DNA of 64,000 nt, from positions 117,261 to 181,260 of IMG/VR virus record IMGVR_UViG_3300021963_009993; one strand, written 5' to 3'. The notes beneath the pieces are model-generated. The model did no database searches. It saw only the letters and a list, made by a program, of their open reading frames with translations, and was not told the DNA's origin. Position numbers and translations under genes: made by a program. This DNA is from a virus. Shown piece after piece: positions 5,740-60,534 of the stretch (the stretch's first letter is position 1; each line of letters begins with the position of its first letter).

Positions 5740-5740
5740 A

Positions 5741-27348: not shown

Positions 27349-28440
27349 ATGCAGTATTTGATAATAGGTTCAGGCTTATATGGAAGTACGGTAGCTAGAA
27401 TTCTTGCTGATTTTGGCGAAAAAGTATTATTAATAGATAAAAGAAACCACATTGGTGGTAATTGTTATACGGAAAAAATAGATGGAATAGATGTCCATAA
27501 GTATGGACCGCATTGCTTTCATACAAATTCAGAAAAAGTTTGGCAGTTTTTAAATCGTTTCACAAAATTTAATGACTTTAAATTGCAAGTAAAAGTAAAT
27601 TACAATAATAAAATATATTCATTTCCCATAAACTTGTTCACTTTGAATCAGCTGTATAAGATACAAAATCCCAAGGAAGCAAAAGCCTTCTTTAAGAAGA
27701 AAAAAAAATTAAACATTCAAAACAATTTTGAAGAATATATTATCAGTAATTTAGGCGAGGAAATTTATCATTTATTTTACAAAGGTTATACCAAGAAACA
27801 ATGGGGTAAAGATCCAGCTGATCTGGATGTTTCATTGGCAAAAAGAATACCAATACGACTAGATTACAACGATTTTTATTTCACAGACAAATATCAAGGA
27901 GTGCCTGTAGATGGCTATACGAAAATGTTTGAAAACATGTTGGATCATCCAAACATAAAAGTTCAATTAGATTGCGATTATTTTGAAAATAAAAAAGATT
28001 TTATAAATCATAAAAAAGTTTATAGTGGTAAAATAGATGAATTTTTTGATTACAAACATGGATTTTTAGAATACAGATCATTAAAGTTTGATATTAAAAA
28101 GTTCAAGAAAACATATCAAGGAAATTCAATAATTAATTATTGCAATGAAAGTGTGCCATACACAAGGATTACAGAACACAAATACTTCTCGCAGTCAAAC
28201 AAGGAAAATACGGTTGTTTCATTTGAATATTCGGTGAATCATACAGATAAAAATATACCTTTTTATCCCATGATGGATCAAAAAAATAAGGAAAGTTTTC
28301 AGAAGTACTGGGATGATGCACGAAAAGAAAATGTTTTGTTTGGAGGAAGGTTGGGTAGATATACTTATTTAAATATGGATCAAGTTGTTGCTATGGCTAT
28401 GAAAGATTGTGAGGAAAAATTATGTCAGAGGAAAATTTAG
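27349..28440 (+). CDS. glf: UDP-galactopyranose mutase
   Basis: This flavoenzyme converts UDP-galactopyranose to UDP-galactofuranose, the donor for Galf-containing glycans. The FAD loop GSGLYGS at 7-13, the segment DKRNHIGGNCY, the GPHCFHTN motif, and GYTKKQWG are strong family signatures. The C-terminal GRLGRYTYLNMDQVVAMA matches the FAD-binding end. Length of 363 residues is typical. No ribosome site is seen, and the ATG is only 6 bases behind the previous terminator. It overlaps the next gene by 19 bp. A phage copy implies synthesis of a Galf donor for glycan changes on virion or host. Confidence 0.93.
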   Translation: MQYLIIGSGLYGSTVARILADFGEKVLLIDKRNHIGGNCYTEKIDGIDVHKYGPHCFHTNSEKVWQFLNRFTKFNDFKLQVKVNYNNKIYSFPINLFTLNQLYKIQNPKEAKAFFKKKKKLNIQNNFEEYIISNLGEEIYHLFYKGYTKKQWGKDPADLDVSLAKRIPIRLDYNDFYFTDKYQGVPVDGYTKMFENMLDHPNIKVQLDCDYFENKKDFINHKKVYSGKIDEFFDYKHGFLEYRSLKFDIKKFKKTYQGNSIINYCNESVPYTRITEHKYFSQSNKENTVVSFEYSVNHTDKNIPFYPMMDQKNKESFQKYWDDARKENVLFGGRLGRYTYLNMDQVVAMAMKDCEEKLCQRKI

Positions 28441-28697
28441 GAAAAAAGAGATTTGAAACCAAGGTGGTTATGGGAAAAAATGGAATGCTTGAAAGACAGA
28501 TATTTATTGGTGGAGAACTACTTGACTGGGGTGTGGACTTATCCTCATTCATGGAAGCCAAGAAAATGGGACCGCAGTATATGAAAGCTATTCAGATGGA
28601 CATAGCCAAACATTTTGCTGCTAGTGTTTCTGAAGTGCTTGGCAGACATGTCAGTATGGAAGAGATTTCAGAAGCGACAAAAACTGGCTGGATTTAA
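28422..28697 (+). CDS. Hypothetical protein, 91 aa
   Basis: A mixed alpha/beta protein with ERQIFIGGELLDWGVDL and a helical C-terminal part (MKAIQMDIAKHFAASVSEVLG). GAGG lies before the start. It overlaps the end of the mutase gene by 19 bp. I recall similar small proteins in T4-like phages but no function. Confidence 0.7.
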   Translation: MSEENLGKKRFETKVVMGKNGMLERQIFIGGELLDWGVDLSSFMEAKKMGPQYMKAIQMDIAKHFAASVSEVLGRHVSMEEISEATKTGWI

Positions 28698-44826: not shown

Positions 44827-45537
44827 ATGAAACCACTAGAAATAAAACCACATTTTATTAAAAGTTTTTATGCAAATGAATCACTAATAAGAATGTTTTT
44901 GAGTTACGACATGCTTTTGCCAAAGTTATCCGATATTTATACTGTAGATGGCAAAACATTAAATATTGGTATGATTTCATCCATGCATTGGTCTAGAACT
45001 TATGAATATTCTTGGTCTTACGATGTTGCAAAACTAGAAAAAAATCATTTGGTTTTAGACGCTGGTTGTGGCTATAGTGTTATAAAATACCCGATAGCTA
45101 AAAATTGTAGAAAAGTTGTCGGAATAGATTTAGATGAAAAATCGCTAACTCAAACTAAAGAGCATTGCAATATGCTTGGAATAGACAATATTGAACTATA
45201 CAAGTCTAATATTTCAGAATTTAAATATAATGAATTATTTGACAGAATTTTTTGTATAAGTGTTTTAGAACATGATGAAAGTAGAGAAAATAGAATTAAT
45301 TGCATAAAGAATATGATTGAACAATTAAAACCAGGAGGTTTATTTATATTTACTTATGATTTTTTTATTAGTGGCATTAGAAGAGATTTTCATATAGATG
45401 AAAAAGAATCAAATTTAATACTTGATTATTTTGGATTTGAAAATTTATATTTTAAAGATGAAACAGATGTTTTAGTAGCAGATGTGGATGGATCTGTTTT
45501 ATCTTGTGTTTGTTTAGTATATCAAAAATCTTACTAA
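44827..45537 (+). CDS. Class I SAM-dependent methyltransferase
   Basis: Motif I is VLDAGCGYSVIKYP, motif II is VVGIDLDEKS, and motif IV/V lies in FDRIFCISVLEHDE with LKPGGLFIFTYD. The product is 236 residues, with an N-terminal 60-residue extension before the SAM domain. Substrate unknown; the glycan cluster nearby makes a sugar or polyketide-like acceptor plausible. AAGGATTTTT precedes the start and TATAAT lies at 44798. It converges on the triple-domain methyltransferase gene with a 4-bp overlap. Confidence 0.85.
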   Translation: MKPLEIKPHFIKSFYANESLIRMFLSYDMLLPKLSDIYTVDGKTLNIGMISSMHWSRTYEYSWSYDVAKLEKNHLVLDAGCGYSVIKYPIAKNCRKVVGIDLDEKSLTQTKEHCNMLGIDNIELYKSNISEFKYNELFDRIFCISVLEHDESRENRINCIKNMIEQLKPGGLFIFTYDFFISGIRRDFHIDEKESNLILDYFGFENLYFKDETDVLVADVDGSVLSCVCLVYQKSY

Positions 45538-47180
45538 TCTTTGAACATTTCAACAATAAGACTTAGCTCTGGAAGATTATCCATAGTTTCAGCAATTATT
45601 TGTGGGTGTCCTTGATTGAATTCTCTTTTTTCAACTCTAAAACCCACTTGTTCTCCTATACTTTTTAATCCATTAAAATCGTATGCAATACTATGTCCAT
45701 TAAATAGTAATGTCCACAACTTGCCACTCTGAAAAGAAAAAGACTCGCATTCATTATTAATTTCATCAAAGATTTGAAGTTTATTGTTTTGATATAGATT
45801 TATTATTTTTTCTAGGTCTGGGACAAGGATTCTAAAAGCTCCACCCTTTTTTAGAAGCCTGTAACATTCTTGCAAAAACAAAATACCTTCATCTCTTGTA
45901 AGATGTTCAAGCATATGACTGCTGTACATCAAATCTATTTTCTCATTTTCTATATTAATTTTTTTCCTAGCATCAAATTGTAAAAATTTATATTGATTAA
46001 CTTGTGCAAATTGATTTAAATCATGAATATCAAGATTTATCCATCCATTATGAAACATGTTTATAAAACTACCAAAATTCAGTTTTAATTTTCCATCTCC
46101 TGATGGTATGCTTAGGGACAAACTTCCTTTCTCAAGTGTTTCCTTATCTACTGGAACTTGTGTTTTTGGCATTCTTTCAAGCCACCAATTTTCATCATGA
46201 AGAGAGCAATGTGTTTTATCAAACCCATCATCATTTTCTCCATAATCAATTCCATGTATTCCTCTATTGCTAACACGATCTATTTCGTCCATAATTTTTG
46301 GCAATAACTTCTCTGGTATGTGTTCCATTACAGCTACAGAAAAACAAACATCAAATTCTTTATCTTTGAAAGGCCAAGGAGTTTCACATACATCAAATTC
46401 AACAACTGAATTAGTGACTCTTGTCAAATAGCAATGTTTAGAAATTTCCAAGCCTTTTGCTTTAATTCCATTGCTTTCAAATCTTTTTACCAAATAACCT
46501 CTAGCACAACCAATTTCTAAAACAGATTTAGGATTAAGTTCCATAATTTTATCAAAAGTTACCCAATGAACAGGATAATCCCAATAACCTTCTCGTGCAT
46601 AACCTCCAACTTTATGACCACCATTGAAATAATTTTTATCAAACAAAGATTTTCTCTCTGTTGAATTTAAGTCTTCAATATTTTGTTCCGGTTTCGTGGC
46701 TTCTATAATCATGTCTGTCCCCAATTCACCATGTGGTAAAATTATGATGTTTTCAAATCCTGTTTCAGATAAAAGCTTTATGGCATATTTTGGATTCAAG
46801 CTGTTTTTGTGTGTGTTATCAGAGTAATCTTGATCTCCAAATATTATGCAAGAACAATTATCATTCCATTCATCATGGTCTAATACCCATTTCATTTGTA
46901 TTTCTGTATTAGCTGTTACAAAAACAGCTTTAGAACTTGGTTTAAGTATTCTGTAGACTTCATTTAGAAAACCTTTTACTTTTCTCCATGAAATATGTTC
47001 TATGCAATAATGACTAAAAACACCATTATATTGGTTATCATTTATGGGCAATGGTTCATTAAAATCTGCAACTATATCAACATTTTCTTCTTTTCTTATA
47101 TCTAAATTAGGCCTAAAAAAGGGTCTGTTACCGCCACCTAATTCTATTACATTTTCTTTGAAAGGGAATGTATAACTCAT
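45534..47180 (-). CDS. Protein with three tandem methyltransferase-like domains
   Basis: The 548 residues contain three class I-type domains. Domain 1 (1-170): VIELGGGNRPFFRPNLDI and FSHYCIEHISWRK. Domain 2 (175-330): SVLEIGCARGYLVKRF and FSVAVMEHIPEK. Domain 3 (350-548): KLNFGSFINMFHNGWINLDI and SSHMLEHLTRDEGIL. Domain 2 has the cleanest SAM loop. Domains 1 and 3 resemble the ones found in glycan clusters of bacteria. There is no Shine-Dalgarno sequence, and TATGAT is 6 bases before the ATG. The gene follows the glycosyltransferase set. Confidence 0.8.
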   Translation of the reverse strand: MSYTFPFKENVIELGGGNRPFFRPNLDIRKEENVDIVADFNEPLPINDNQYNGVFSHYCIEHISWRKVKGFLNEVYRILKPSSKAVFVTANTEIQMKWVLDHDEWNDNCSCIIFGDQDYSDNTHKNSLNPKYAIKLLSETGFENIIILPHGELGTDMIIEATKPEQNIEDLNSTERKSLFDKNYFNGGHKVGGYAREGYWDYPVHWVTFDKIMELNPKSVLEIGCARGYLVKRFESNGIKAKGLEISKHCYLTRVTNSVVEFDVCETPWPFKDKEFDVCFSVAVMEHIPEKLLPKIMDEIDRVSNRGIHGIDYGENDDGFDKTHCSLHDENWWLERMPKTQVPVDKETLEKGSLSLSIPSGDGKLKLNFGSFINMFHNGWINLDIHDLNQFAQVNQYKFLQFDARKKINIENEKIDLMYSSHMLEHLTRDEGILFLQECYRLLKKGGAFRILVPDLEKIINLYQNNKLQIFDEINNECESFSFQSGKLWTLLFNGHSIAYDFNGLKSIGEQVGFRVEKREFNQGHPQIIAETMDNLPELSLIVEMFKD

Positions 47181-47206: not shown

Positions 47207-48211
47207 TTATGAATTTAATATTAATGATATTTCCTTTCTATAAGATTCTTTAATTTTATCCCATGTGTATTTTTCCGCTTGTTTTTGACACTCTTCTATT
47301 GTTGTAAAATTATTATTTTTATTATAATCTATAACTTCCATAAGTTTTTTTATTGATTTTTTTTCAACAACAAATCCGCAATCACCAACACAATCAGCTG
47401 CACCTGCTCCATCAGAAACAATAACTGGTCTTCCGCATGCCAGAGATTCCAAGACTTCTATGCCAAAACCTTCTGTAACACTTGGTTGAACATAAATGTT
47501 TATTTGATTATAAAAGTCTTCAATATTTTTAACGAAACCTAAGATATTAAAGTTGCCTTTGCCTAATTGTCTTATAATATGGATTAAACTTGTTGTTTGG
47601 GAACCAGCTAATGTTAGAACTGCATCTTTGTAATTAAGATTGGCCCACGCTTTTAATAAATATATTAAGCCTTTATCTGGCCCAATTTGACCTAGATATC
47701 CAACTGTGAATCTAGAAGGCTTGGCTTTTGCTTTCATGATATGTGTTCCGTGTGGCACAACAACTACATTTTTGCAGCCAAATTTTTCCATTATTTTTTT
47801 TGAGTGTTGTGAAGGACAAATTACTAAGTCTGCCAATAAATAACCATCAACATATTCCTTGAATAAACTAGCATCAGTAAGATGAGGAGCATTAAAATTC
47901 AAACCAAGACTCTCAAACTCTTTTTTACTTAAATCTACATCATGAGCAGCTGCTGTATAAATTATTTTTGACCCTTGTTTCTTTAGCTTTCTTATCGTTT
48001 TTGAAAATGTGCCAGAATAAAAATATGCCAGTTTTATATTTGAAAAATCTTCATTTATTATTTGATTTTCTGCCTCAAATGGTGATGCAGTTGGATTTGG
48101 ATTAAATACTTTTACTTCTCCTAAAGTAGTAAGAGCATCTAATTCATTTTTTGTGACTATGCCACCACCAGTCTGTGACCCTATCGCATCACATGTAAAA
48201 TAACCTAACAT
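47207..48211 (-). CDS. GT4-like glycosyltransferase
   Basis: A GT-B protein with FTVGYLGQIGPDKGL in the linker and the family hallmark EGFGIEVLESLACGRPVIVSDG (E-x7-E). These enzymes use nucleotide sugars with retention of configuration. A GTG lies 6 bases before ATG 48211. TAATG coupling with the previous gene and AGGTGGG support 48211. It is the third gene of the minus-strand set 49883 to 47207. Confidence 0.87.
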   Translation of the reverse strand: MLGYFTCDAIGSQTGGGIVTKNELDALTTLGEVKVFNPNPTASPFEAENQIINEDFSNIKLAYFYSGTFSKTIRKLKKQGSKIIYTAAAHDVDLSKKEFESLGLNFNAPHLTDASLFKEYVDGYLLADLVICPSQHSKKIMEKFGCKNVVVVPHGTHIMKAKAKPSRFTVGYLGQIGPDKGLIYLLKAWANLNYKDAVLTLAGSQTTSLIHIIRQLGKGNFNILGFVKNIEDFYNQINIYVQPSVTEGFGIEVLESLACGRPVIVSDGAGAADCVGDCGFVVEKKSIKKLMEVIDYNKNNNFTTIEECQKQAEKYTWDKIKESYRKEISLILNS

Positions 48212-49230
48212 TACCACCCACCTGTTTCAACTGCTTCCAAACAAACTTTTTCATAATTTTCTACCATATTCTCATATGAAAATTGGGAAGCCCATTCTCT
48301 GCAATTTTCTGGCTTGATACTGGCAACAGCGTTTGATTTGACCAATTCATCTATTTCTTCTTTAGAAGTAACCAAGAATCCAGTTTCACCATGTTTAATG
48401 GTTTCTCGCATAGCTCCATTATCCCATGCTATAACTGGCATTCCACATAGTTGTGACTCAACTGGAGCTAGACCAAAAGGCTCTCTAAATTGTTGATTAG
48501 GATGTAATAAAGCTTTATTGCGATTAAACCATTCTACACATTCTGCTCTACTTTGTGGGCCAACATACCTCAAATTTGGATTCACATTACAAGCATTTTT
48601 TACTTCTGTAACTAATTGTGGTTCTCCAGTAAGAGTATCATCACCAACTAAATCCAAATTAACTCCGGTTGTAATTGCAACATTACAAGCTATGTGTGGG
48701 CCTTTTATTGTGCTAATTCTTGCAAGAAACAAATACCTATCATTTCTTTTCTTTTTTAAATTTTTATAAAAATCAACATCAACCCCGTTATAAACTGTTC
48801 TTGTTTCTAATTTCAAATGTTCTTTGCAAGCATCTCCTTGATCATTACTTATTGTAACAAAACAGGGCTTTTCAACAGGAGGAACTTCATTGTACATAGT
48901 GTGAATTGGAGCATGTAAAACACCTAGTACTGGGCATTTAATTACTCCTTGCATCTTTGCTACATATGACCACTTTTCCCAACTATGATCGATGATAACA
49001 TCAAATTCTTTTAGTTTTTCAACATAACCAAGATAAGCATATCTTTCTTTTTCTCCCAAAGTAGTTCCGTGCAACTCTGTTTCAGTTGTTGATTCTTTGG
49101 GAGCAATTAAGGTTACTTCATGTCCTTTTTTGTGAAGTCCATTAGCACATTGCCAGCTAATCATCTCTAAACCGGCATAACCATCTGGTGGACATTTAAT
49201 TACAGTTGTAGATATTACACAGATTTTCAT
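48211..49230 (-). CDS. GT4-like glycosyltransferase
   Basis: The N-terminus has ICVISTTVIKCPPDGYAGLEM, and the C-terminal domain REPFGLAPVESQLCGMPVIAW with E-x7-E. The segment RYLFLARISTIKGPHIA is typical of the GT4 donor domain. It resembles bacterial GT4 enzymes acting on lipopolysaccharide-like chains. Coupled on both sides by TAATG-type overlaps. Its donor may include the Galf made by the mutase at 27349, as inference. Confidence 0.87.
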   Translation of the reverse strand: MKICVISTTVIKCPPDGYAGLEMISWQCANGLHKKGHEVTLIAPKESTTETELHGTTLGEKERYAYLGYVEKLKEFDVIIDHSWEKWSYVAKMQGVIKCPVLGVLHAPIHTMYNEVPPVEKPCFVTISNDQGDACKEHLKLETRTVYNGVDVDFYKNLKKKRNDRYLFLARISTIKGPHIACNVAITTGVNLDLVGDDTLTGEPQLVTEVKNACNVNPNLRYVGPQSRAECVEWFNRNKALLHPNQQFREPFGLAPVESQLCGMPVIAWDNGAMRETIKHGETGFLVTSKEEIDELVKSNAVASIKPENCREWASQFSYENMVENYEKVCLEAVETGGW

Positions 49231-49883
49231 TAGATCACCGCCGGTTGATAAATATTTTCGCCACTTTCAGATAGACCCACATGTAGACACTTCACAGATG
49301 TGTCTACATAAATTTTAACACCTAAAGTTTTCTTGATATGCTTGCAAAATGCAAAATCTTCGCTGACTCTTTCTTTTGGGTCTAAGTCTGGTCTGTCACA
49401 TCTCCATTCAAACCATCTGCACTTTTCGCTTATTGGCGGGGTTGCAAGCAACAAATCTCTGTGAATCAACATGCAACCCGAACCAACCATATCCACTTCC
49501 ACTAATTCATTCTGTCTATATTCTGTTATCCATTTTGGCACACCATCTTCTTGCTCTTTGAGCATTACAGGATATAAAGGCAAGTTTCTCCTGTAGTAAA
49601 GACCACTCACTATAGGTAATTTATGATTCATCAATTTGAAAATTGCGTCATGTGGCAAAATCATGTCGTCATCTAAAAAGAATAACCATTCCCAATCAAG
49701 ATCTAAGAGTCTGTTGCATGCTGTGTTTCTTGCATGATCGAATGGCATTCCACTAAAAAAAGCAAATGTTCCGGGTATTTGCAAATTTCTAAAATTTGAT
49801 GCCCATTTGGTCGTAACCATTTCTCTGGTTAATATACAAGTAAGAACTCTGTTTTGTTTTATTATTTCCCATGATCCAGCCAT
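49230..49883 (-). CDS. GT-A fold glycosyltransferase (GT2-like)
   Basis: Contains WLFFLDDDMILP, a DxD-type metal site of GT-A enzymes, upstream ARNTACNRLL, and a later SEDFAFCKHI as the probable catalytic acidic segment. A product of 217 residues is short for the family but spans the core. The start is ATG 49883 with GGTGA upstream. It is the first gene of the glycosyltransferase set. Confidence 0.8.
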   Translation of the reverse strand: MAGSWEIIKQNRVLTCILTREMVTTKWASNFRNLQIPGTFAFFSGMPFDHARNTACNRLLDLDWEWLFFLDDDMILPHDAIFKLMNHKLPIVSGLYYRRNLPLYPVMLKEQEDGVPKWITEYRQNELVEVDMVGSGCMLIHRDLLLATPPISEKCRWFEWRCDRPDLDPKERVSEDFAFCKHIKKTLGVKIYVDTSVKCLHVGLSESGENIYQPAVI

Positions 49884-49955: not shown

Positions 49956-51329
49956 ATGCTAAAGAAAATTTTAAACGATGATTGGAAATGGTGGACTTGG
50001 GTTTTTTGGAAAAACAGCGGTGGCAACAAAGATGCTGTTTTTCAAGTTCTTCTAAATCATGGATTTGATTTTGATTCAATAAGCAAAGAATTGAATTACA
50101 CACCTACAAATGATTTTATTCTTAACAGAAAATCAACACAGTTAAACTTAAACAAAGAACCGAATGTAATAATTGGAGATCTTTGTAAAAATTTTGCAGA
50201 CAATCCAAACTTTATCAGAATAGACTCAAATGATTTGGAAATTTATTATTCTCCAGCTGTTTTAACACAGGAAGAATGTGACAAAATAATATCAGAAGTA
50301 CAATTAAACGAAGAAGGAATAAAGTATCCAAATTTTGAAAATTTTGAAGCCATGAAGGTTGCTAATTCTAAAATAAACCAAGCTTGCAAAATTACAGACA
50401 AGGATCATATTGATTTTGAATTTATAAAAATACCCAAGGACACACCCAATAATTGCAAAAACGATTGGGAAATAAATGCAAAAAGAACATGGACAATTTT
50501 AATTTTTCTACATGACACAGAAAATCCATGTTATGGATTTCCTTTTTTGCCTAAGTATTTCAAAGGTGTTAAAGGTGGAATACTAATTTGGAACAATTAT
50601 TTAGCTGATGATACAGCGAATGGTTTTTCAGAAAACTGCGTTTATAAATCAGAAATTGAAAATTGGTTTTCAATCAAAAAACACTTTTCTTTTTACAAAC
50701 CAGAACCAGAAGTTATTCCTGAATTTAATCAAAAATTAATTAACAATCCGATGTGTAAAAAAATTGATACATCGAAGTTGGAAATTTATGAAGTCGAAGA
50801 TTTTATGTCTGAATCCGAGTGCAATGAATTTTTGGAAAATATGGCTGATAAATTGTTGCCATCAACTGTAACAAATCCAGAAGCTGAAAAATCTGTTAGA
50901 ACAAGTTCTACAGCATATCTTAAAAGAAATGAGTTTTTAGAAAAATTAGACAAAAAATTTCATGATTTCATCGATGTCCCACAAGGATTTTCAGAGGAAT
51001 TTCAGGGACAAAGATATTTGGTTGGACAAGAATTCAAACAGCATAATGATTGGTTTGATGAAAATTCAACATACAATAAAGTTCATTTAAATATGGGACA
51101 AAGAACTTGGACTTTTATGGTTTATCTTAATGATGTTGAAGAAGGTGGAGAAACTGAATTTACAAAACTAAAATTATCAATCAAACCAAAGAAGGGTAAA
51201 GCTGTCATATGGCAAAACCTTTACGCTGACGGTCGTGGCAATCCATTTTCTGAACATGCTGGCAAACCTGTAATTAAGGGTGAAAAAAACATTGTTACTA
51301 AATGGTTTAGACAACGAAGTAGCACATAA
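49956..51329 (+). CDS. Prolyl-4-hydroxylase-like 2OG-Fe(II) oxygenase with duplicated domain
   Basis: The C-terminal half (about 265-457) is a P4H-type dioxygenase. RYLVGQEFKQHNDWFDEN carries the HxD iron site, and FSEHAGKPVIKGEKNIVTKW gives the distal His and the 2-oxoglutarate Lys. The N-terminal half (about 85-255) repeats the same plan: DLEIYYSPAVLTQEEC matches KLEIYEVEDFMSESEC, and RTWTILIFL matches RTWTFMVYL. Its SENC replaces SEHA, so the distal His is lost and this copy is probably not catalytic. Such enzymes hydroxylate prolines in collagen-like or extensin-like repeats. The gene converges on a gene encoding SPPP repeats. Confidence 0.85.
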   Translation: MLKKILNDDWKWWTWVFWKNSGGNKDAVFQVLLNHGFDFDSISKELNYTPTNDFILNRKSTQLNLNKEPNVIIGDLCKNFADNPNFIRIDSNDLEIYYSPAVLTQEECDKIISEVQLNEEGIKYPNFENFEAMKVANSKINQACKITDKDHIDFEFIKIPKDTPNNCKNDWEINAKRTWTILIFLHDTENPCYGFPFLPKYFKGVKGGILIWNNYLADDTANGFSENCVYKSEIENWFSIKKHFSFYKPEPEVIPEFNQKLINNPMCKKIDTSKLEIYEVEDFMSESECNEFLENMADKLLPSTVTNPEAEKSVRTSSTAYLKRNEFLEKLDKKFHDFIDVPQGFSEEFQGQRYLVGQEFKQHNDWFDENSTYNKVHLNMGQRTWTFMVYLNDVEEGGETEFTKLKLSIKPKKGKAVIWQNLYADGRGNPFSEHAGKPVIKGEKNIVTKWFRQRSST

Positions 51330-51331
51330 AA

Positions 51332-52294
51332 TCAAACAAGATTGTTTTCCTTTATGTATTTGGCAATTTCATCGTTTGCAAAACTATCTGTAACTTGTGA
51401 ATTCTTTACAGGAATATCCATAAAGAATTTCAAAACTTTCTTTATGGATTTTTTGTTCTTTATAAACTTGGCAAAATTTTCACCATTTTTAACATAAAGT
51501 TTCTGTAACCAAATCGGCCCTGTGCTAAACATCCATTCACGGAATTTAATCCAATCTCTGTTATCCACTCCGTATACTTCTCTAGCAACCCAACATGGTG
51601 TTGGTGGTGGACTTGGTGAAGGAGATGGTGAAGGTGGTGGACTTGGTGAAGGAGATGGTGAAGGTGGTGGACTTGGCGGTGGTGAAGGTGGAGGTGAAGG
51701 TGGTGTTGGTGGTGGACTCGGCGGTGGTGAAGGTGGTGCTGCCGTTGTGCTACTAGTTGTAGAAGTGGTTGTAGTAGTTGTTGTTGTTGTTGTAGTTGTT
51801 GTTGTCATTGTAGAAGCATTTTCAATATTTGATCCTGAATATGTATAGGTGCCACCATCTGCATAAACATAGGATGAATCTACAGCCGATGGTATTATGT
51901 TATCTGTAATTGTTAGTTCTACTGTATCTGTGCTATAGACTGTTCCTGTTATAGAATAATCTGCTGTCATATCTGTAGAACTGTATGAACTTAAAGATAT
52001 TGTTCTGGAAACAGTATTTACTTTAAATGTAAGCCCTGCTGCTGCCTGAGCCATAACATAATCATCAAAAGAAAAACCTGCTGGTATATTTACTGGCTGT
52101 GTAAAACCTACTTGCAATACAGTTCCAGCTGAAGTAATCTTGGGTTTTGGTCTAGGAGGTGGAGCATAAGGATTAGTTACAGGTTTAGTTGCTGTACCGG
52201 GATAAATTACGACTGGCAAGCCATTACCACCGCCAGCACAAGTGCCAACACCACCATTTGGTCTTCGTTTGCATCTTCTTGTAATTCCAGCCAT
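51332..52294 (-). CDS. Virion protein with poly-Thr and SPPP tracts
   Basis: Start ATG 52294 overlaps the fibre stop (TAATG). Residues 55-155 form a beta domain. Residues 163-185 are nearly all Thr, then SPPP-type repeats run to 235, as in plant or algal hydroxyproline-rich proteins. The C-terminal 85 residues are basic and helical (FIKNKKSIKKVLKFFMD). The neighbour on the other strand is a prolyl hydroxylase. The Thr and hydroxyproline residues are classic O-glycosylation points, and several glycosyltransferases lie near. Position after the fibre gene suggests a fibre-associated or collar protein. Confidence 0.75.
   Translation of the reverse strand: MAGITRRCKRRPNGGVGTCAGGGNGLPVVIYPGTATKPVTNPYAPPPRPKPKITSAGTVLQVGFTQPVNIPAGFSFDDYVMAQAAAGLTFKVNTVSRTISLSSYSSTDMTADYSITGTVYSTDTVELTITDNIIPSAVDSSYVYADGGTYTYSGSNIENASTMTTTTTTTTTTTTTTSTTSSTTAAPPSPPPSPPPTPPSPPPSPPPSPPPSPSPSPSPPPSPSPSPSPPPTPCWVAREVYGVDNRDWIKFREWMFSTGPIWLQKLYVKNGENFAKFIKNKKSIKKVLKFFMDIPVKNSQVTDSFANDEIAKYIKENNLV
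51590..51736 (-). repeat. SPPP/SP tandem repeat DNA
   Basis: Short GGTGG(A/T)-type units on the plus strand (AGGCGG/TGGAGG-like) encode SPPP and SPSP. The poly-Thr tract follows at 51740-51808 as a (GTT/TGT)n-like stretch. Confidence 0.8.
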
Positions 52295-55200
52295 TATGCC
52301 ACTCTCCATCCAGCAGAAGCAGAACCATTATTTGTTGAATCGTAAATTAATTCAGCATAATCATTCGGACCTAAAATTATATCTGTTCCTTGTATATTGA
52401 AAAATTTATTGCCTGCACTAGATGAAGCAGAATTATGGGTGAGTGTAATATTTGCTGTTCCAACATTATACAATTTTATAATTTCCCCATCAGAACCAGC
52501 TGTTATACCTGTAATTGATGAAGCGGTAGTGCAATTTACACGCAAGAAAGATCCTCCTCCGGGTGCCCAGTTATTCTGGCTAGCCGTGAGATTTACAGTA
52601 GTTGATGTAAATCTAACTCTTGAGCTAAATTGACCAGTAGTTCCAAAGACAGTACCACCAGACATATTTGTTGCCGTTGTTGCTGTAGTAGCATTACCAG
52701 CTAAAGCACCTGTAAGATTCGTTGCTGTTATTGCGGTTAGTCCAGATATAATAGAAGCTGTTGCACCAAGACTTACTGATGTAGAACCGATTGTTACTGA
52801 ACTGTTTGTAAGGCTTGCGTTTGCGATACTACCAGCAAGGATATGAGGGCTACCAATGACATTGGCACCGATTTGTCCAGAAAGAATACTGGCAGCAGCA
52901 TGATGATTAGTACCAACAGAGCCAGAAGCAATAAGACCACTAACAACACCAGCATTAGGTATGCTAAAAGTAACATTACCAGTACCGGCACTAACACTAA
53001 TGCCAGTACCAGCAGTAGCTTGTGTAACACCAGCGTTAGTAAGAGTAACACTTGAACCAAGAGATACTGCACCACCACCAGCAAGACCAGTACCAGCTGT
53101 TACTGTTACAGAAGAGTTTGCAAGTTTAGTGTTTGAAATAGTTGAGTTAGTAATATTAGCATCGTTAACAGCACTAGCACCAAGCATACCACTAGTAATG
53201 TTGCCACTAGTGATACTCCAAGTTTGAGCAGCAGAGCCATTGAAAGATGAACCAGTTAAACCAGCACCAGCACTATGACTATTAGTTGTATTTGCTGTTA
53301 TTGTAATATCAGCAGATCCATTGAAACTTGTGCCATTAATGTTTTTTGCGGTTTGAAGTGTAGTTGCAGTACTAGCATTGCCAGTTAAAGCACCAGTAAA
53401 TGTAGTAGCAGCAACACTAGTTAAGCCAGCCAAGGTTGTAGCAGTTGAACCTAAACTTACTGATGTAGAACCAATAGTTACTGAAGAGTTGGCAAGATTA
53501 GCGTTTGCGATAGTACTTGCAGCTATTTTGGCACCAGTAATCTGACCAGAAGCTATGTTTCCAGTAACGATAGCATTGTCACCAAGATCACCAGAGACAA
53601 CAGCACCTGAAGCTAATTGAGTTCCAGTAATACTACCACTAGCAATACTAAAAGTAACATTGCCAGTACCAGCACTAACACTAATGCCAGTACCAGCGGT
53701 AGCTTGAGTGACACCAGTATTTGTAAAAGTAACACTACCAGTACCAGCACTAACACTAATGCCAGTACCAGCGGTAGCTTGAGTAACACCTGCATTAGTA
53801 AGAGTAACGCTTGAACCAAGAGATACTGCACCACCACCAGTAAGACCAGTACCAGCTGTTACTGTTACAGAAGAGTTTGCAAGATTTGTATTCGCAATAG
53901 TACTTGCAGCTATATGGCTTCCTCCTATTTGACCAGAAGCAATATTGCCACTTGTTACTGCGTTGTTTCCAATGTTTCCACTAACAATTGTTCCGCTAGA
54001 TAAAGTTGGAGAAGATATGTTTGTTGAAGAAGCATTACCACCAGCTGTTATGTCTAAGTAAAATCCTCTTGCCAAACCACCTTGTTCAAAAAATCTTAAT
54101 TTGTTTTGATAAACATCGATTACTACACCAGTTCCAGATATTGTAGTGTTTGTAACAGGTTTTGCAAGTTGTATTTCACCACCTTCATCACCAACAGAAT
54201 TTGTAGACTTAATATATGTTGCAGATAAATTAGTTCCATCCCATGTTAAATTTGATGTTGAACCAAATGAATTTCCATTATTAAATTGAATTTGACCAGA
54301 AGAACCGTTTGGAATCGCACTTGCAAGTACACCACTTGCCAAATGATTTAAACCTATTTGACCAGAAGCAATACTTCCACTTATTACAGCACTAGCACCA
54401 AGCATGCCACTAGTAATGTTACCACTAGTGATACTCCAAGTTTGAGCAGAAGATCCGTTGAATGAAGATCCGGTAATACCAGCACCAGCACTATGAATAT
54501 TAGTTGTGTTTGCTGTTATTGTAATATCAGCAGATCCATTGAAACTTGTACCGTTGATACTTCTTGCTGTTTGAAGTGTAGTTGCAGTACTAGCATTGCC
54601 AGTTAAAGCACCAGTAAATGTAGTAGCAGCAACACTAGTTAAGCCAGCCAAGGTTGTAGCAGTTGAACCTAGGCTTACTGATGTAGAACCGATTGTTACT
54701 GAACTGTTTGTAAGGCTTGCGTTTGCGATACTACCAGCAAGTATATGAGGACTACCAATGACATTAGCACCGATTTGTCCAGAAAGAATACTGGAAGCAG
54801 CATGATGATTAGTACCAACAGAGCCAGAAGCAATAAGACCACTAACAACACCAGCATTAGGTATGCTAAAAGTAACATTTCCAGTACCGGCACTAACACT
54901 AATGCCAGTACCAGCAGTAGCTTGTGTAACACCAGCGTTAGTAAGAGTAACGCTTGAACCGAGAGATACTGCACCACCACCAGTAAGACCAGTACCAGCT
55001 GTTACTGTTACAGAAGAGTTTGCAAGTTTAGCGTTTGAAATAGTTGAGTTAGTAATATTAGCATCATTGACAGCACTAGCACCAAGCATCCCACTAGTAA
55101 TGTTGCCACTAGTGATACTCCAAGTTTGAGCAGCAGAGCCATTGAAAGATGAACCAGTTAAACCAGCACCAGCACTATGGCTATTAGTTGTGTTTGCTGT

Positions 55201-58200
55201 TATTGTAATATCAGCAGATCCATTAAAACTTGTACCGTTGATACTTCTTGCGGTTTGAAGTGTAGTTGCAGTACTAGCATTACCAGTTAAAGCACCAGTA
55301 AATGTAGTAGCAGCAACACTAGTTAAGCCAGCCAAGGTTGTAGCAGTTGAACCTAGGCTTACTGATGTAGAACCGATTGTTACTGAACTATTGGCAAGGT
55401 TAGCGTTTGCAATAGTACTTGCAGCTATTTTGGCACCAGTAACTTGACCGGAAGCGATGGCATTTGTTGAAACGCTATTATCACCTAACAGTCCACTAAC
55501 GATGGCACCAGAACCAACAGCAATAGTGACAGCACCAGAGCCATTATAAGACCCACCAGTAAGACCAGTACCAATTGTTAATGCTGCATTATTGTAAGAA
55601 GCACCTAGTGCAGTACTGGCACCATTAATTGTTACTGTAGAGTTTGCAAGGCTTGCGTTTGCGATACTACCAGCAAGTATATGAGGACTACCGATGACAT
55701 TGGCACCGATTTGTCCAGAAAGAATACTGGCAGCAGCATGATGATTAGTACCAACAGAGCCAGAAGCAATTTTACCACTAGTTACAGCATTGTCAGCAAC
55801 ATCAGCATTTATAACGGCCCCGGAAGCTATGTGTTCAGCCGTAATACTTCCACTAGCAATCTTGACACCAGTAACCTGACCAGAGGCGATGGCGTTCGTT
55901 GAAACGCTATTGTCACCTAAAAGTCCACTAACGATAGCACCAGAACCAACAGCAATAGTGATAGCACCAGAACCATTGTAAGAACCACCAGTAAGGCCAG
56001 TACCAATAGTTAATGCTGCGTTGTTATAAGATGCACCTAGTGCAGTACTTGCACCATTGATTGTTACTGAAGAGTTTACAAGATTTGCATTAGCAATAGT
56101 ACTTGCAGCTATTTTGGCACCAGTAACTTGACCGGAAGCGATGCTGCCTGTAACTACAGCATTGTCACCAAGATCACCAGAGACAACAGCACCTGAAGCT
56201 AATTGGGTTCCAGTAATACTTCCACTAGCTATACTAAAAGTAACATTTCCAGTACCGGCACTAACATTAATGCCAGTACCAGCAGTAGCTTGAGTAACAC
56301 CAGTATTTGTTAGTGTTACTCCACCAGTAGTTGCAGTTGCACTAATTCCAGTACTACCACTTATACTTGTAACACCAGCGTTAGTAAGAGTAACGCTTGA
56401 ACCGAGAGATACTGCACCACCACCAGTAAGACCAGTACCAGCTGTTACTGTTACAGAAGAGTTTGCAAGTTTAGCGTTTGAAATAGTTGAGTTAGTAATA
56501 TTAGCATCATTGACAGCACTAGCACCAAGCATCCCACTAGTAATGTTGCCACTAGTGATACTCCAAGTTTGAGCAGCAGAGCCATTGAAAGATGAACCAG
56601 TTAAACCAGCACCAGCACTATGGCTATTAGTTGTGTTTGCTGTTATTGTAATATCAGCAGATCCATTAAAACTTGTACCATTGATGCTTCTTGCAGTTTG
56701 AAGTGTAGTTGCAGTACTAGCATTACCAGTTAAAGCACCAGTAAATGTAGTAGCAGCAACACTAGTTAAGCCAGCCAAGGTTGTAGCAGTTGAACCTAGG
56801 CTTACTGATGTGGAGCCAATCGTTACCGAAGAATTGGCAAGGTTAGCGTTTGCAATAGTACTTGCAGCTATTTTGGCACCAGTAACTTGACCGGAAGCGA
56901 TGGCATTTGTTGAAACGCTATTATCACCTAGCAGTCCACTAACGATGGCACCAGAACCGATGGCAATAGTGACAGCACCAGAACCATTGTAAGACCCGCC
57001 AGTTAATCCAGTACCGATTGTTAATGCTGCATTGTTATAAGAAGCACCTAGTGCAGTACTTGCACCATTAATTGTTACTGAACTATTGGCAAGGTTTGCA
57101 TTTGCAACACTACTTGCAGCTATATGGTTTCCTCCTATTTGACCAGAAGCAATGTTGCCACTTGTTACAGAAGAATTTGCCAAAAATGAATTTATTATAG
57201 ATCCACTACCAATATTAATTGTTGTATTATTTGCACCATTAAATGAACCGGCTGCAAATCCAGAGCCAAATGTAAGCGTACCAGAAATTGTTGCACTTAC
57301 TGAACCAGAACCACCTAATGATATTGAATTTCCATTAATCATAATAGAACTATTTTGTAAATTCGCATTTGTAATTGCTGAAGCAGCAATATGACTTGTG
57401 CCAATTTGGCCAGAAGCAATATTCCCACTCATGATAGAACTTGCTGCTATATTTCCGCTAGATACAGAACCAGATCCCAAACTACCAGCAGGTATTGGAG
57501 TTGTTGTTGTTGCTGGAGGAGAGGTTGTGGGTGTTTGATAAATAGTGTATGCTGTTAAACTATAATTTATAAAATTTGAAGTATTATACCAAGACATATG
57601 TTCAAAAATTGATGTGGGACTTGATAATCCAGCATTTGTGACAGCCTCAACAGTAAAAGATTCGGTGTTTATTATCGTTATTGTGTTATCACCTATATTA
57701 TTTGGTGTGAAAATACTCACATCAAAATCAACATTTGCTTTGGTGCTGTTTGTCCATGTTGTTCTAGGATAACCAACAATATCATATTCATTTCCAGATT
57801 CTAATAGTTTAAACCTTAATGTTACTGAAGTTTTTGTTGTTCCACTAAACTGTTTGAGTTTTAACGATAGGGTTTTCAACGAACCCATAGAACTATTGGC
57901 AGTTCTGAAAACAAAACCTTGATAAGTCGCAAGACTTACAGAAGAAATATCTGCAACTTCAAGGCAATTTAATACTAAAGGATTGTTTACAGCTAAAGCT
58001 TGAGTTACTGTTGTTGCGCTAGTAACAGCCATATTACCACTAGATAAAGCTTGCTTGGCATAACTATCAGCATTTGTTACATTTAAATATAAATTTGTTA
58101 AATTAGAAAAAGATAAATTTTGTTGTAATCCACTTGAGTCTGTTACCGGATATGGCGACAATCCAAATTGCGCTCTATCTTTTGATAAAGAATATGTACT

Positions 58201-58500
58201 TGATAAATCAGATATTGACTCATCATTTAAAGGATAAAAATAACCAGAAAATGTATTATAATTTGAATTTTTGAATGTATAGTATCCTGATGATAATTCA
58301 ATTAATTTGTTGCTCATAGCAACATAAAGATCTCGTCCACTTGATATAAGTTGGGTTGCTGAGTTAATTTGCCCAGAAGTCGTTGTTGGGGCGTAATTTA
58401 TGGAATAATTACCACTTCCCGTATGAGACATAGTTAAAAGAGGAGCTATTTGATTTACTTTATACATCAAATAACCAAAATTATCATAATTTAAAGCCAT
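52294..58500 (-). CDS. Giant repeat-rich tail fibre protein, 2068 aa
   Basis: A long fibre built from Ser/Thr/Ala/Gly-rich, beta-helix-like repeats. The first 330 residues are an anchor region; a TTSPPATTTTPIP linker follows. Then come many copies of short modules such as ASTALGASYNNAALTIGTGL, SVTIGSTSVSLGSTATTLAG and LTGNASTATTLQTA. Larger modules of about 180 residues recur four times. The last 120 residues (GTVFGTTGQFSSRVRF to GPNDYAELIYDSTNNG) are unique and form the likely receptor-binding tip. AAAGGTGA precedes the start. It is the third of four fibre genes read leftwards. Confidence 0.88.
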   Translation of the reverse strand: MALNYDNFGYLMYKVNQIAPLLTMSHTGSGNYSINYAPTTTSGQINSATQLISSGRDLYVAMSNKLIELSSGYYTFKNSNYNTFSGYFYPLNDESISDLSSTYSLSKDRAQFGLSPYPVTDSSGLQQNLSFSNLTNLYLNVTNADSYAKQALSSGNMAVTSATTVTQALAVNNPLVLNCLEVADISSVSLATYQGFVFRTANSSMGSLKTLSLKLKQFSGTTKTSVTLRFKLLESGNEYDIVGYPRTTWTNSTKANVDFDVSIFTPNNIGDNTITIINTESFTVEAVTNAGLSSPTSIFEHMSWYNTSNFINYSLTAYTIYQTPTTSPPATTTTPIPAGSLGSGSVSSGNIAASSIMSGNIASGQIGTSHIAASAITNANLQNSSIMINGNSISLGGSGSVSATISGTLTFGSGFAAGSFNGANNTTINIGSGSIINSFLANSSVTSGNIASGQIGGNHIAASSVANANLANSSVTINGASTALGASYNNAALTIGTGLTGGSYNGSGAVTIAIGSGAIVSGLLGDNSVSTNAIASGQVTGAKIAASTIANANLANSSVTIGSTSVSLGSTATTLAGLTSVAATTFTGALTGNASTATTLQTARSINGTSFNGSADITITANTTNSHSAGAGLTGSSFNGSAAQTWSITSGNITSGMLGASAVNDANITNSTISNAKLANSSVTVTAGTGLTGGGAVSLGSSVTLTNAGVTSISGSTGISATATTGGVTLTNTGVTQATAGTGINVSAGTGNVTFSIASGSITGTQLASGAVVSGDLGDNAVVTGSIASGQVTGAKIAASTIANANLVNSSVTINGASTALGASYNNAALTIGTGLTGGSYNGSGAITIAVGSGAIVSGLLGDNSVSTNAIASGQVTGVKIASGSITAEHIASGAVINADVADNAVTSGKIASGSVGTNHHAAASILSGQIGANVIGSPHILAGSIANASLANSTVTINGASTALGASYNNAALTIGTGLTGGSYNGSGAVTIAVGSGAIVSGLLGDNSVSTNAIASGQVTGAKIAASTIANANLANSSVTIGSTSVSLGSTATTLAGLTSVAATTFTGALTGNASTATTLQTARSINGTSFNGSADITITANTTNSHSAGAGLTGSSFNGSAAQTWSITSGNITSGMLGASAVNDANITNSTISNAKLANSSVTVTAGTGLTGGGAVSLGSSVTLTNAGVTQATAGTGISVSAGTGNVTFSIPNAGVVSGLIASGSVGTNHHAASSILSGQIGANVIGSPHILAGSIANASLTNSSVTIGSTSVSLGSTATTLAGLTSVAATTFTGALTGNASTATTLQTARSINGTSFNGSADITITANTTNIHSAGAGITGSSFNGSSAQTWSITSGNITSGMLGASAVISGSIASGQIGLNHLASGVLASAIPNGSSGQIQFNNGNSFGSTSNLTWDGTNLSATYIKSTNSVGDEGGEIQLAKPVTNTTISGTGVVIDVYQNKLRFFEQGGLARGFYLDITAGGNASSTNISSPTLSSGTIVSGNIGNNAVTSGNIASGQIGGSHIAASTIANTNLANSSVTVTAGTGLTGGGAVSLGSSVTLTNAGVTQATAGTGISVSAGTGSVTFTNTGVTQATAGTGISVSAGTGNVTFSIASGSITGTQLASGAVVSGDLGDNAIVTGNIASGQITGAKIAASTIANANLANSSVTIGSTSVSLGSTATTLAGLTSVAATTFTGALTGNASTATTLQTAKNINGTSFNGSADITITANTTNSHSAGAGLTGSSFNGSAAQTWSITSGNITSGMLGASAVNDANITNSTISNTKLANSSVTVTAGTGLAGGGAVSLGSSVTLTNAGVTQATAGTGISVSAGTGNVTFSIPNAGVVSGLIASGSVGTNHHAAASILSGQIGANVIGSPHILAGSIANASLTNSSVTIGSTSVSLGATASIISGLTAITATNLTGALAGNATTATTATNMSGGTVFGTTGQFSSRVRFTSTTVNLTASQNNWAPGGGSFLRVNCTTASSITGITAGSDGEIIKLYNVGTANITLTHNSASSSAGNKFFNIQGTDIILGPNDYAELIYDSTNNGSASAGWRVA
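52960..56880 (-). repeat. Large near-identical DNA modules in fibre gene
   Basis: Four copies of one module lie near 52960-53520, 54390-54740 (shorter), 54890-55450 and 56390-56880. Each contains the marker AGCAGATCCATT(G/A)AAACTTGT. A second module (STALGASYNNAALTIG...GLLGDNSVSTNAIASG) recurs at about 55450-55640, 55860-56070 and 56890-57080. Divergence is mostly silent, so recent duplication or gene conversion is likely. Confidence 0.85.
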
Positions 58501-58533: not shown

Positions 58534-60534
58534 TTAAACATAAATAGTTCCAGCAATATATTTTTGATAAATTGAATAATTTACCGCAGAAGCCGCAGCA
58601 AAAACTCTGTAGTATTGTGAAGTAAGTCCTATAGAAGGCTTATAAGATATTGTTGAAAGATTGCAATAAAAGTTAGTTGTCGTAAACCAGTCTTGTCCAG
58701 CCTGTACTGGCACAGGTTGATAATAACCACTAATATTAGCAAAGCCAGATACTACGATTGGATAGATCGATCCGGCGACACTTCCAGCAGCTTGTGGGCC
58801 AATAGCAGTATAACCACCAAATGTTACTGGTTGTGTATCCAAGCCTTGCACATAGTATATTGAACTTTCGGCATGCCACGGATAAAATGTATTTGCTGTT
58901 TGACCATTTGGAATTGGATTGAATCTGTTGTAATTAAATGGAAGCGTGTTTACATTATACAACAATCTTCTATCTAAAGTGTTGACTAGGTTATTGTTTA
59001 CACCAAGATGGGATGGGTATGTTGTACCCGAAAGAGTGCCACCACTCCAAACCCCATATCCACTAGATGGCAAAATAGCAGCTGTTCCCAAATATCTTCT
59101 TGAAAAATCACCAGATTGAACATAAACACCATTTAATACATTTAATATACCAGTTGTTGGTCTTGTTGCATAGTTTGTCCAAGGTGGACCCCAGTCCATA
59201 GCAACTCTTCCAGATGTAACACCACCAGATATTGCATATGCAAATATGTCCCTGACAGTTCCAGCTAAAAAGCCTCCACCAGATGCAGCACTTGCTGCAA
59301 GCGATGTTGAGCCAGAAATTGTATATATTTGCCATGCACCAGTAACATTGTTGTATAAAGATACTTGGTTTCCTTCATATTGTTCCAAGAAAACATTAGC
59401 ACTTCCACTTATGTCAACATTTTGTACTGGTGAACCGCTTTGCAATGTCAATCTTGTATTATTAGGATATTTGTATCCTACTGTGTCTAATGTTCCAGAG
59501 GCAAACTTATCTACAGTTAAAACACCTTGACCAATAACATTCGGACCAATAGCTCCAGATGCTATATTTCCTGAAACTATACCTGCGTTTCCAGTTACAC
59601 CACTTTGTATAAATCCAGAACTTACGGAAAATCTGTTAACCGCACCGCTTGCTATTTTTCCACTTACTACTGCATTATTAGCAAGCATCAAACTAATTAT
59701 TCCACCGCTAGCAACACTTGCAGTTTTTGCAACAGAACCATCAAAAGAATCAAGAGAATATGATAAACCAGAACCAAAAATGAGAGCTTGAGGAGTATTT
59801 GCAGTTATGGTTATATTTGCACTACCATCAAAAGAACCACTATTAATTAATCTTGGTGTAATCAACCTTGTTGCTGTTGTGGCATCTCCAGACAAAGTTC
59901 CTCTGAAATAAGTTGACTGAACAGACACCATGCCACTTATAAATGTGACACCAGAGCCAAGTCTTACATCTGTGCTTCCCAAGGTGATGTTTGGTGTTTG
60001 TAACATGCCAACTGTAATTCCAGATTGTGCAATGTTTAAAATTCCAGATGTTGTTCCATCATATGAAATTGCTTGAATTCCAGAACCTGCTATCAAAGGG
60101 AAATATAATGCTGATTTAATTGTGATATCTGAGGTTCCATCAAAAGAACCACTATTAATCAATCTTGCTGTTTGCAATCTTGTTGCTGTAGAGGCGTTTC
60201 CTGTGAAAGATCCACTAGAAGTTATTGTCGCAATAACATTGCTGTTGTTGTCCCTAAACTGTATTAAATCTGGATTTATTCCTCCACCAAAAACACTTAG
60301 TGCTGTTCTTCCAGATGCAGCAAATATATTTACTTGGGCACCAGATGTTACATTTCCAGATCCCATGACCAAAAGTCCAGATGATTGAATTTGAAAATTA
60401 AGACCATCTGGTGAAGTGAATTTTAAACTGCCATCTGCTTCTGCACTTAAAGTAACAGGATTAGAAGCTCCAGAACCATTAAATTGAATTGTTGGTGGTA
60501 CTGCTTGTGGGTTTATTTTTATATTTTGTGGCAT
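58534..60534 (-). CDS. Tail fibre protein with unique C-terminal domain, 666 aa
   Basis: The N-terminal half shows the fibre module style (SVFGGGINPDLIQFRDNN, FTGNASTATRLQTARLINS). From about residue 345, a domain starting KYPNNTRLTLQSGSPVQNVD begins, with two beta sub-regions. It is a paralogue of the C-terminal domain of the next gene (RYPNNFRLSIQSGVSVPTQD) but diverges strongly towards the end. Receptor binding is probable. AGAGGGAT lies before the ATG. Codon use is AT-rich as in the neighbours. Confidence 0.83.
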   Translation of the reverse strand: MPQNIKINPQAVPPTIQFNGSGASNPVTLSAEADGSLKFTSPDGLNFQIQSSGLLVMGSGNVTSGAQVNIFAASGRTALSVFGGGINPDLIQFRDNNSNVIATITSSGSFTGNASTATRLQTARLINSGSFDGTSDITIKSALYFPLIAGSGIQAISYDGTTSGILNIAQSGITVGMLQTPNITLGSTDVRLGSGVTFISGMVSVQSTYFRGTLSGDATTATRLITPRLINSGSFDGSANITITANTPQALIFGSGLSYSLDSFDGSVAKTASVASGGIISLMLANNAVVSGKIASGAVNRFSVSSGFIQSGVTGNAGIVSGNIASGAIGPNVIGQGVLTVDKFASGTLDTVGYKYPNNTRLTLQSGSPVQNVDISGSANVFLEQYEGNQVSLYNNVTGAWQIYTISGSTSLAASAASGGGFLAGTVRDIFAYAISGGVTSGRVAMDWGPPWTNYATRPTTGILNVLNGVYVQSGDFSRRYLGTAAILPSSGYGVWSGGTLSGTTYPSHLGVNNNLVNTLDRRLLYNVNTLPFNYNRFNPIPNGQTANTFYPWHAESSIYYVQGLDTQPVTFGGYTAIGPQAAGSVAGSIYPIVVSGFANISGYYQPVPVQAGQDWFTTTNFYCNLSTISYKPSIGLTSQYYRVFAAASAVNYSIYQKYIAGTIYV

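Follow-up and report, generated by a model that had tools for sequence, protein, structure and literature searches.

The 64,000-nucleotide stretch analysed here (the window) comprises bases 117,261-181,260 of a 181,260-base IMG/VR virus record, which the matches of its major head protein (phrog_138, E=2e-83), terminase (phrog_2, E=3e-39) and portal protein (Portal_T4, E=2e-73) identify as a double-stranded DNA (dsDNA) phage of the T4 superfamily. At 49956-51329 on the plus strand the window carries a gene for an oxygenase of the prolyl-4-hydroxylase (P4H) family, and at 51332-52309 on the minus strand a gene for a protein with SPPP and poly-Thr repeats. The two genes converge, as the original prediction for this DNA had stated, and only 2 bp separate their stop codons. 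In related phages, P4H genes recur in clusters with genes for glycosyltransferases (GTs) and for structural proteins with proline repeats, a recurrence suggesting that the proline-rich linkers of some phages are hydroxylated, and perhaps also glycosylated, by the phages themselves. On balance, we consider hydroxylation of prolines in the phage's own proline-rich linkers the best reading of the phage P4H.

An oxygenase assigned to the P4H family

The oxygenase open reading frame (ORF) encodes 457 amino acids (aa), and its Pfam match (PF13640, 2OG-FeII_Oxy_3, E=1.7e-16, residues 350-452) is confined to the C-terminal part. Three regions can be distinguished: an N-terminal module of residues 1-70 (49956..50165; DDWKWWTW...LLNHGF), helical in the predicted model; a degenerate first oxygenase domain of residues ~77-257 (50184..50726), which shares 27% identity (E=2e-13) with the protein's own C-terminal domain; and the catalytic P4H domain of residues 258-457 (50727..51326). 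A profile built from 15 oxygenase relatives and searched against the PDB at E<=0.01 matched the P4H of Bacillus anthracis (E~1e-47), human C-P4H-II, Chlamydomonas P4H-1 (Cr-P4H), the PBCV-1 enzyme vCPH and P4H-TM, and returned nothing besides these P4Hs. A Foldseek search with the predicted model, whose confidence is low outside the C-terminal domain, placed the same P4Hs at the top of its list, among them 3GZE, which shows the algal enzyme in complex with (Ser-Pro)5.

The metal ligands H363, D365 and H434 and the 2-oxoglutarate (2OG) residue K444, which align with H143/D145/H227/K237 of Cr-P4H, are invariant in the 15 relatives. The same holds for the peptide-site equivalents R315, S317, E347, Q350, R383 and W450, of which E347/Q350/R383/W450 align with E127/Q130/R161/W243 and R315/S317 with Arg93/Ser95; on the basis of the alignment we take Arg93, Ser95 and Gln130 of Cr-P4H to be peptide-site residues. 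The roles of its H143, D145, H227, E127 and R161 have been described (PMC5684110), as have a conserved P4H motif and a tyrosine (Tyr140 of Cr-P4H) that is highly conserved in P4Hs and contacts the peptide (PMC9676403). From the profile and fold matches together with the peptide-binding residues of an algal (Ser-Pro)5-binding enzyme, we assign the oxygenase with high confidence to the P4H family, in its collagen, plant and viral type, in agreement with the prolyl hydroxylase originally predicted. Its residues 258-457 would bind Fe(II) and 2OG and thread an extended proline-rich peptide through the active site.

It is conceivable that the oxygenase is inactive or repurposed, its duplication with a dead first copy having turned it into a binding protein. 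The first domain lacks the aligned His of the HxD motif, the distal His and the 2OG Lys, Tyr140 is replaced by Phe360, and model confidence outside the C-terminal domain is low. We nevertheless consider this very improbable, as the second domain retains intact metal ligands, 2OG Lys and peptide-site residues, and Phe360 is itself invariant in the P4H subgroup to which the enzyme belongs, other phage relatives having Tyr or Phe; the Tyr140-equivalent belongs to the catalytic loop but is not a defining catalytic residue. The degenerate copy most likely serves in substrate holding or folding; its insert was found in no relative compared. OGFOD1 and Tpa1 also combine two such domains, OGFOD1 having an N-terminal catalytic and a C-terminal degenerate double-stranded beta-helix (DSBH) domain. 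An assignment to this type was rejected, since the domain order is reversed here and OGFOD1 is absent from the profile matches at E<=0.01.

The subgroup, which we call clade i, consists of P4Hs with a common N-terminal helical module of ~70 residues, in which W10, K11, W13, F29, L32, F37 and P50 are invariant in an alignment of 8 clade members. The phylogenetic tree groups the window P4H with clade i, with the fork open (92/89). The module is also found in some gammaproteobacterial P4Hs.

The convergent gene encodes a protein with SPPP and poly-Thr repeats

The convergent ORF encodes 325 aa and overlaps the next, fibre-like ORF at 52294. Its residues 169-238 (51596..51805, minus strand) form a 70-aa linker of poly-Thr followed by SPPP/SP repeats (32 Pro, 16 Ser, 20 Thr, 2 Ala), and residues 192-238 constitute a proline-rich stretch of SP/TP/SPPP repeats such as an acceptor for hydroxyproline O-glycosylation would have, comparable repeats being present in the relatives described below. 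Among 218 ORFs of the record it has the densest proline (21 of 30 residues; mean 3.5, sd 2.3). Serine is encoded by both TCN and AGY and proline and threonine by several codons each, so the repeat is maintained at the protein level and not only as a DNA microsatellite.

The reading frame is real because the linker is followed by a conserved domain (51335..51595, minus strand), named here CWVAREVYG after a motif, whose residues 239-302 include 20 positions invariant across 34 phage proteins. This domain of ~64 aa (L033-L112) is unnamed and widespread in phages; it was confirmed in at least 548 IMG/VR stretches and in gp25 of phage HMO-2011, and in all of the 80 proteins examined it forms the very C-terminal end. 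No match was found among the Pfam, NCBIfam and PHROG families, and the AlphaFold model, four helices with a pLDDT of 93, has no fold match in the PDB. The domain defined by this analysis is common in phages and covered by none of the public families searched. An identification with a known sorting domain, the 'CFI-box', was considered and is not claimed, as neither an NCBIfam or Pfam match nor a paper was found for it. In HMO-2011 the gp25 gene adjoins a block of annotated tail-fibre genes, a context that, by analogy and short of proof, is compatible with a virion role of the SPPP protein.

If the P4H acts on the phage's own proteins, the SPPP linker is the candidate substrate closest at hand. 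Thr/Pro linkers that are stronger still are encoded elsewhere in the record, by a gene close to 81.2 kb and at positions 101,961-105,950 (L032 1961-5950), both outside the window; at the latter a 1329-aa protein contains poly-Thr and long PT/SP repeats; its PT/ST-rich linkers are probably substrates as well. A collagen-like substrate was rejected, the longest Gly-X-Y run anywhere in the record being no more than 3.

Some P4H genes of clade i cluster with glycosyltransferase and proline-repeat genes

None of the first 25 P4H relatives collected has an SPPP neighbour, and from these the gene adjacency appeared to be a one-off; this view was dropped once the profile search brought in nearer relatives, among them the loci L363 and L381. 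These stem from different metagenomes, their P4Hs are 53% identical, and they share the gene order P4H, a second small HxD oxygenase (oxygenase 2), a GT and a structural protein with a (TP)68 (L381) or (TP)71 (L363) repeat. In both, the other three genes lie together on the minus strand, convergent with the P4H gene. The contig L463 has the identical block arrangement with (PSPV)35 as the repeat. Oxygenase 2, paired with the P4H, is encoded at 5822-6370 (minus strand) in L381, at 5798-6346 (minus strand) in L363 and at 5505-6011 (plus strand) in L003. PHROG labels its family, phrog_2954, as ferrochelatase, a label that looks wrong.

The linkers of these three loci are similar in length (142 aa in L363, 140 aa in L463, 136 aa in L381), and the repeat proteins of L363 and L463 are 97% identical in the C-terminal flank while the repeat unit has changed from TP to PSPV. 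Since the unit has changed with linker length and flank retained, the proline-rich character is preserved at the level of the protein.

The transferase of L363 matches the family of hydroxyproline O-arabinosyltransferases (HPAT; PF23452), plant enzymes that attach sugar to hydroxyproline, in hmmscan with 31.6 bits against a Pfam cut-off of 23.9, covering profile positions 57-248 of 307, and by this score it is an HPAT family member with a predicted activity. That of L381 is GT32-like (PF04488, 55 bits), and close to the P4H of further clade i members are GT15, RXYLT1/GT47-like or DUF3431 genes. In these closest relatives the transferase next to the P4H, which is of the HPAT family in L363/L463 and GT32-like in L381, probably glycosylates the hydroxylated linker, and the outcome would be a rigid rod, covered with sugar, that separates domains of the virion. 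For phages of the L363 type we give glycosylation of hydroxyproline (Hyp) an even chance.

It could be objected that the Thr/Ser/Pro linkers are mere flexible or polyproline-II spacers, or are glycosylated on Thr/Ser without hydroxylation, with P4H and GTs belonging to separate pathways for surface glycans or the host envelope. Gp23-relatives in which no P4H was detected do have Thr/Pro linkers, the GT60 family includes a Trypanosoma cruzi polypeptide GlcNAc-transferase (PMC6939170), and the window phage carries an unrelated sugar cluster of pyruvyl-, amino-, acetyl- and sulfotransferases. We regard this explanation as improbable, as it leaves unexplained both the neighbourhood of P4H, oxygenase 2, HPAT-family GT and proline-repeat protein in L363/L463 and the retention of proline at every second residue through the change from TP to PSPV.

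A second P4H clade is linked to a triple glycosyltransferase

For a second clade of phage P4Hs, downstream sequence is available at 14 loci. At 13 of them a triple GT gene (HPAT-like/O-FucT/GT60) lies directly behind the P4H, and the 14th has a weakly GT11-like ORF in this place. Where complete, the triple GT comprises 917 aa with an HPAT-like part (below the cut-off), an O-FucT part (E=2.8e-25) and a GlcNAc-transferase part (PF11397, which we take to be the GT60 family; E=2e-37). In L010, L387, L409, L411, L424, L433 and others a carbamoyltransferase-like gene follows it. The P4H of this clade is fused to a homologue of the clade i oxygenase 2 (E from 1e-6 to 6e-10; hhalign 91%), which in clade i is a protein of its own. 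A predicted Hyp-specific transferase, HPAT or GT60, is accordingly encoded in the same genome as the P4H both in L363/L463 (HPAT) and in this second clade. No Pro-Ser/Thr repeats were seen in the second-clade phages, and the repeats thus point to no candidate target there.

Proline repeats are enriched with P4Hs of clade i

Of the clade i lineages with a record of 20 kb or longer, 6/7 contain the pattern (P[ST])4P (present in the window, L003/L005, L006/L007 with one match, L363, L381 and L390; absent from L359) as against 0/10 records of other P4H clades (Fisher p=0.0006) and 5/18 gp23-relatives (Fisher p=0.02), groups that were chosen partly after the data had been inspected and whose loci are not independent events. 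Likewise, 3/8 clade i lineages and 0/58 other loci have, no more than 3 kb from the P4H, a gene with at least 15 Pro in a stretch of 30 residues (p=0.001).

These counts bear on the explanation that the P4H modifies a host protein, such as EF-Tu or another translation factor, or some other early target, and that its adjacency to the SPPP gene is coincidental. The best structural match is the B. anthracis P4H, including entry 5v7y, which 'interacts with and modifies EF-Tu'; several other phage P4H clades sit in replication or nucleotide gene blocks, adjoining UvsX, DNA polymerase or ribonucleotide reductase (RNR) genes without proline repeats; and bacterial P4Hs with the N-terminal module have housekeeping surroundings and no proline-rich neighbours. 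In described phages, related oxygenases are located near UvsX together with DNA polymerase, near asparagine synthase, or among genes without annotation. We consider a host target unlikely, given the enrichment of proline repeats in clade i records and the clustering of P4H with GT and proline-repeat structural genes in L363, L463 and L381.

Several further observations speak against linker hydroxylation in the window phage, as do the EF-Tu connection, the replication-linked clades, the partly retrospective choice of groups and the Phe at the Tyr140 position. The loci L363, L463 and L381 have a single syntenic arrangement in common and so represent few independent events. The part of the SPPP protein upstream of its C-terminal domain is not homologous to the repeat proteins of L363 and L381, a whole-protein search of phage records and IMG/VR found no homologue of it, and no relative examined has such a protein beside its P4H. 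Only 1 of 120 SPPP-bearing stretches taken from random viral contigs carries a P4H, so SPPP by itself is no predictor of P4H. The closely related phage G016, with an 89% identical gp23, carries numerous poly-Thr/Pro linkers and long (SPPP)n stretches that connect RCC1-like and LamG-like domains, named by eye (L343 1-4324 and 16825-18628; L344 1-2994), with no P4H seen on the 48-kb fragment, which shows that such linkers can occur without a known P4H. HPAT, GT60 and oxygenase 2 were not found in the window's record, in a genome search that was weak, having missed the L363 HPAT that hmmscan detects. GT60 and HPAT are, moreover, encoded in two gp23-relatives (G013, G012) with no P4H on their fragments and hence are not tied to P4H everywhere.

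Taken together, the core of the original prediction, hydroxylation followed by glycosylation of fibre linkers, is backed by P4Hs of the same clade beside (TP)68-71 or (PSPV)35 proteins and GTs, one of them of the HPAT family; its specific SPPP pairing recurs in no relative. As regards the predicted glycosylation pathway in the window phage, the lack of HPAT, GT60 and oxygenase 2 in the record and the G016 linkers without P4H leave sugar on Hyp possible there, at less than an even chance.

Comparison with known systems

One close parallel is the plant and algal extensin, or hydroxyproline-rich glycoprotein (HRGP), pathway, in which a P4H and subsequently HPAT/SGT act on SPPP. The phage P4H belongs to the same family as Cr-P4H-1 (3GZE), the window has an SPPP/SP target-like sequence, and L363/L463 encode an HPAT-family transferase. 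In contrast to the plant system, a dsDNA phage has no secretory pathway, the window phage lacks HPAT, the domains flanking the linker are phage structural modules, and the relatives' linkers consist of (TP)n or (PSPV)n. The cytoplasmic Skp1 pathway of Dictyostelium and Toxoplasma, where GT60 enzymes (Gnt1) place GlcNAc on the hydroxyproline of Skp1 after PhyA (PMC6939170), resembles the second phage clade in combining a non-ER P4H with GT60. It differs in that the phage GT60 is fused to HPAT-like and O-FucT parts, and GT60 is absent from the window's record.

Among individual enzymes, PBCV-1 vCPH (5c5t) is likewise a viral P4H of the same structural family; it comes from a virus of a eukaryotic alga, and judging by length and alignment the protein solved comprises one P4H domain and has neither N-terminal module nor degenerate copy. 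The B. anthracis P4H is the closest solved protein in sequence and fold (up to 37% identity), but it is a chromosomal bacterial enzyme reported to modify EF-Tu, with no proline-repeat partner known here. The 2OG-Fe(II) oxygenases of cyanophages and PHROG 61, to which the window oxygenase also matches (phrog_61, E=1.1e-30), are common in phages. No partner or substrate is proposed for them in the papers cited below (PMC9301287, PMC12774648), whereas clade i has the N-terminal module, proline-repeat genes and GT neighbours.

We tentatively propose that some tailed phages run a complete Hyp O-glycosylation pathway of their own, of which the window phage would have a version with the transferase replaced by another GT. 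P4H, oxygenase 2 and an HPAT/GT60 transferase would then modify (TP)n, (PSPV)n or SPPP virion linkers and produce phage counterparts of extensins. No paper in the literature searched describes a phage system of this type; if the proposal holds, hydroxyproline glycosylation would no longer be solely eukaryotic, and phage virions would hold extensin-like coated rods. Aquatic viruses are described as carrying P4HA as one of their abundant auxiliary genes, and its viral use has been called cryptic (PMC9301287); EGLN3-like structures have been noted as well (PMC12774648). Because the clusters name a concrete substrate class, proline-repeat linkers, and partners (HPAT, GT60, GT32 and oxygenase 2), this cryptic use of P4H can be tested with few recombinant genes.

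Other genes of the window and the record

Directly upstream of the SPPP gene lies a gene for a long, repetitive fibre-like protein (52294..58500, minus strand), whose repeats are seen in the translation and which contains the linker TPTTSPPATTTTPIP; the gene that follows it, at 58534-60534, has matches among the PHROGs for tail fibres. Of the additional linkers originally listed, those at 52294 and at 32650 (an N-terminal T6PAP) are real, while the one at 26092 is only Pro-rich and that at 33481 trivial.

On the other side, 72 bp from the oxygenase gene and divergent from it, a minus-strand gene (49230..49883) encodes a small GT-like protein with a DDD motif. The only family matched by this protein is a PHROG glycosyltransferase family (phrog_34859, E=1.5e-6), its Pfam matches to Anp1/GT2 being below the cut-off. 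It is accompanied on the same strand by two GT4 genes (48211..49230, PF00534, E=2.8e-19; 47207..48217, PF00534, E=2.3e-28) and a gene for a protein with three stretches matching S-adenosylmethionine (SAM) methyltransferases (45534..47180, PF08241). The UDP-galactopyranose mutase (27349..28440, plus strand; PF03275, E=2e-71, 240 bits), both GT4 genes and TylF, all named in the original prediction, are confirmed by family matches; two 'GT9-like' genes fell below the Pfam cut-off. The mutase and galactofuranose (Galf) had further been suggested to take part in linker glycosylation, a link that is unsupported, as no evidence ties the mutase to the hydroxylase or to a linker. The sugar cluster of the record is located at 60,324-66,580 (L030 324-6580) and encodes a pyruvyl transferase, a DegT aminotransferase, a PglD-like acetyltransferase and a sulfotransferase.

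In addition, the T4-type portal gene at 7383-9896 of the window contains an intein that interrupts it (PF14890, E=1.6e-11), and four different proteases, C39-like, C1, trypsin-like and subtilase, are encoded within ~11 kb (24021-24581, 25173-26099, 28694-29470 and 34179-35258). A leader of the form M-x-x-F-x-x-W-L, which may be a tag for packaging or processing, is shared by the N-termini of many proteins of the record (L029 2656-16773, among other genes). A short, secreted-looking EF-hand protein is encoded at L027 19317-19673 (minus strand), and the product of 38732-39658 (minus strand) in the window combines acidic MDDEEDMDDE repeats with a His-rich stretch.

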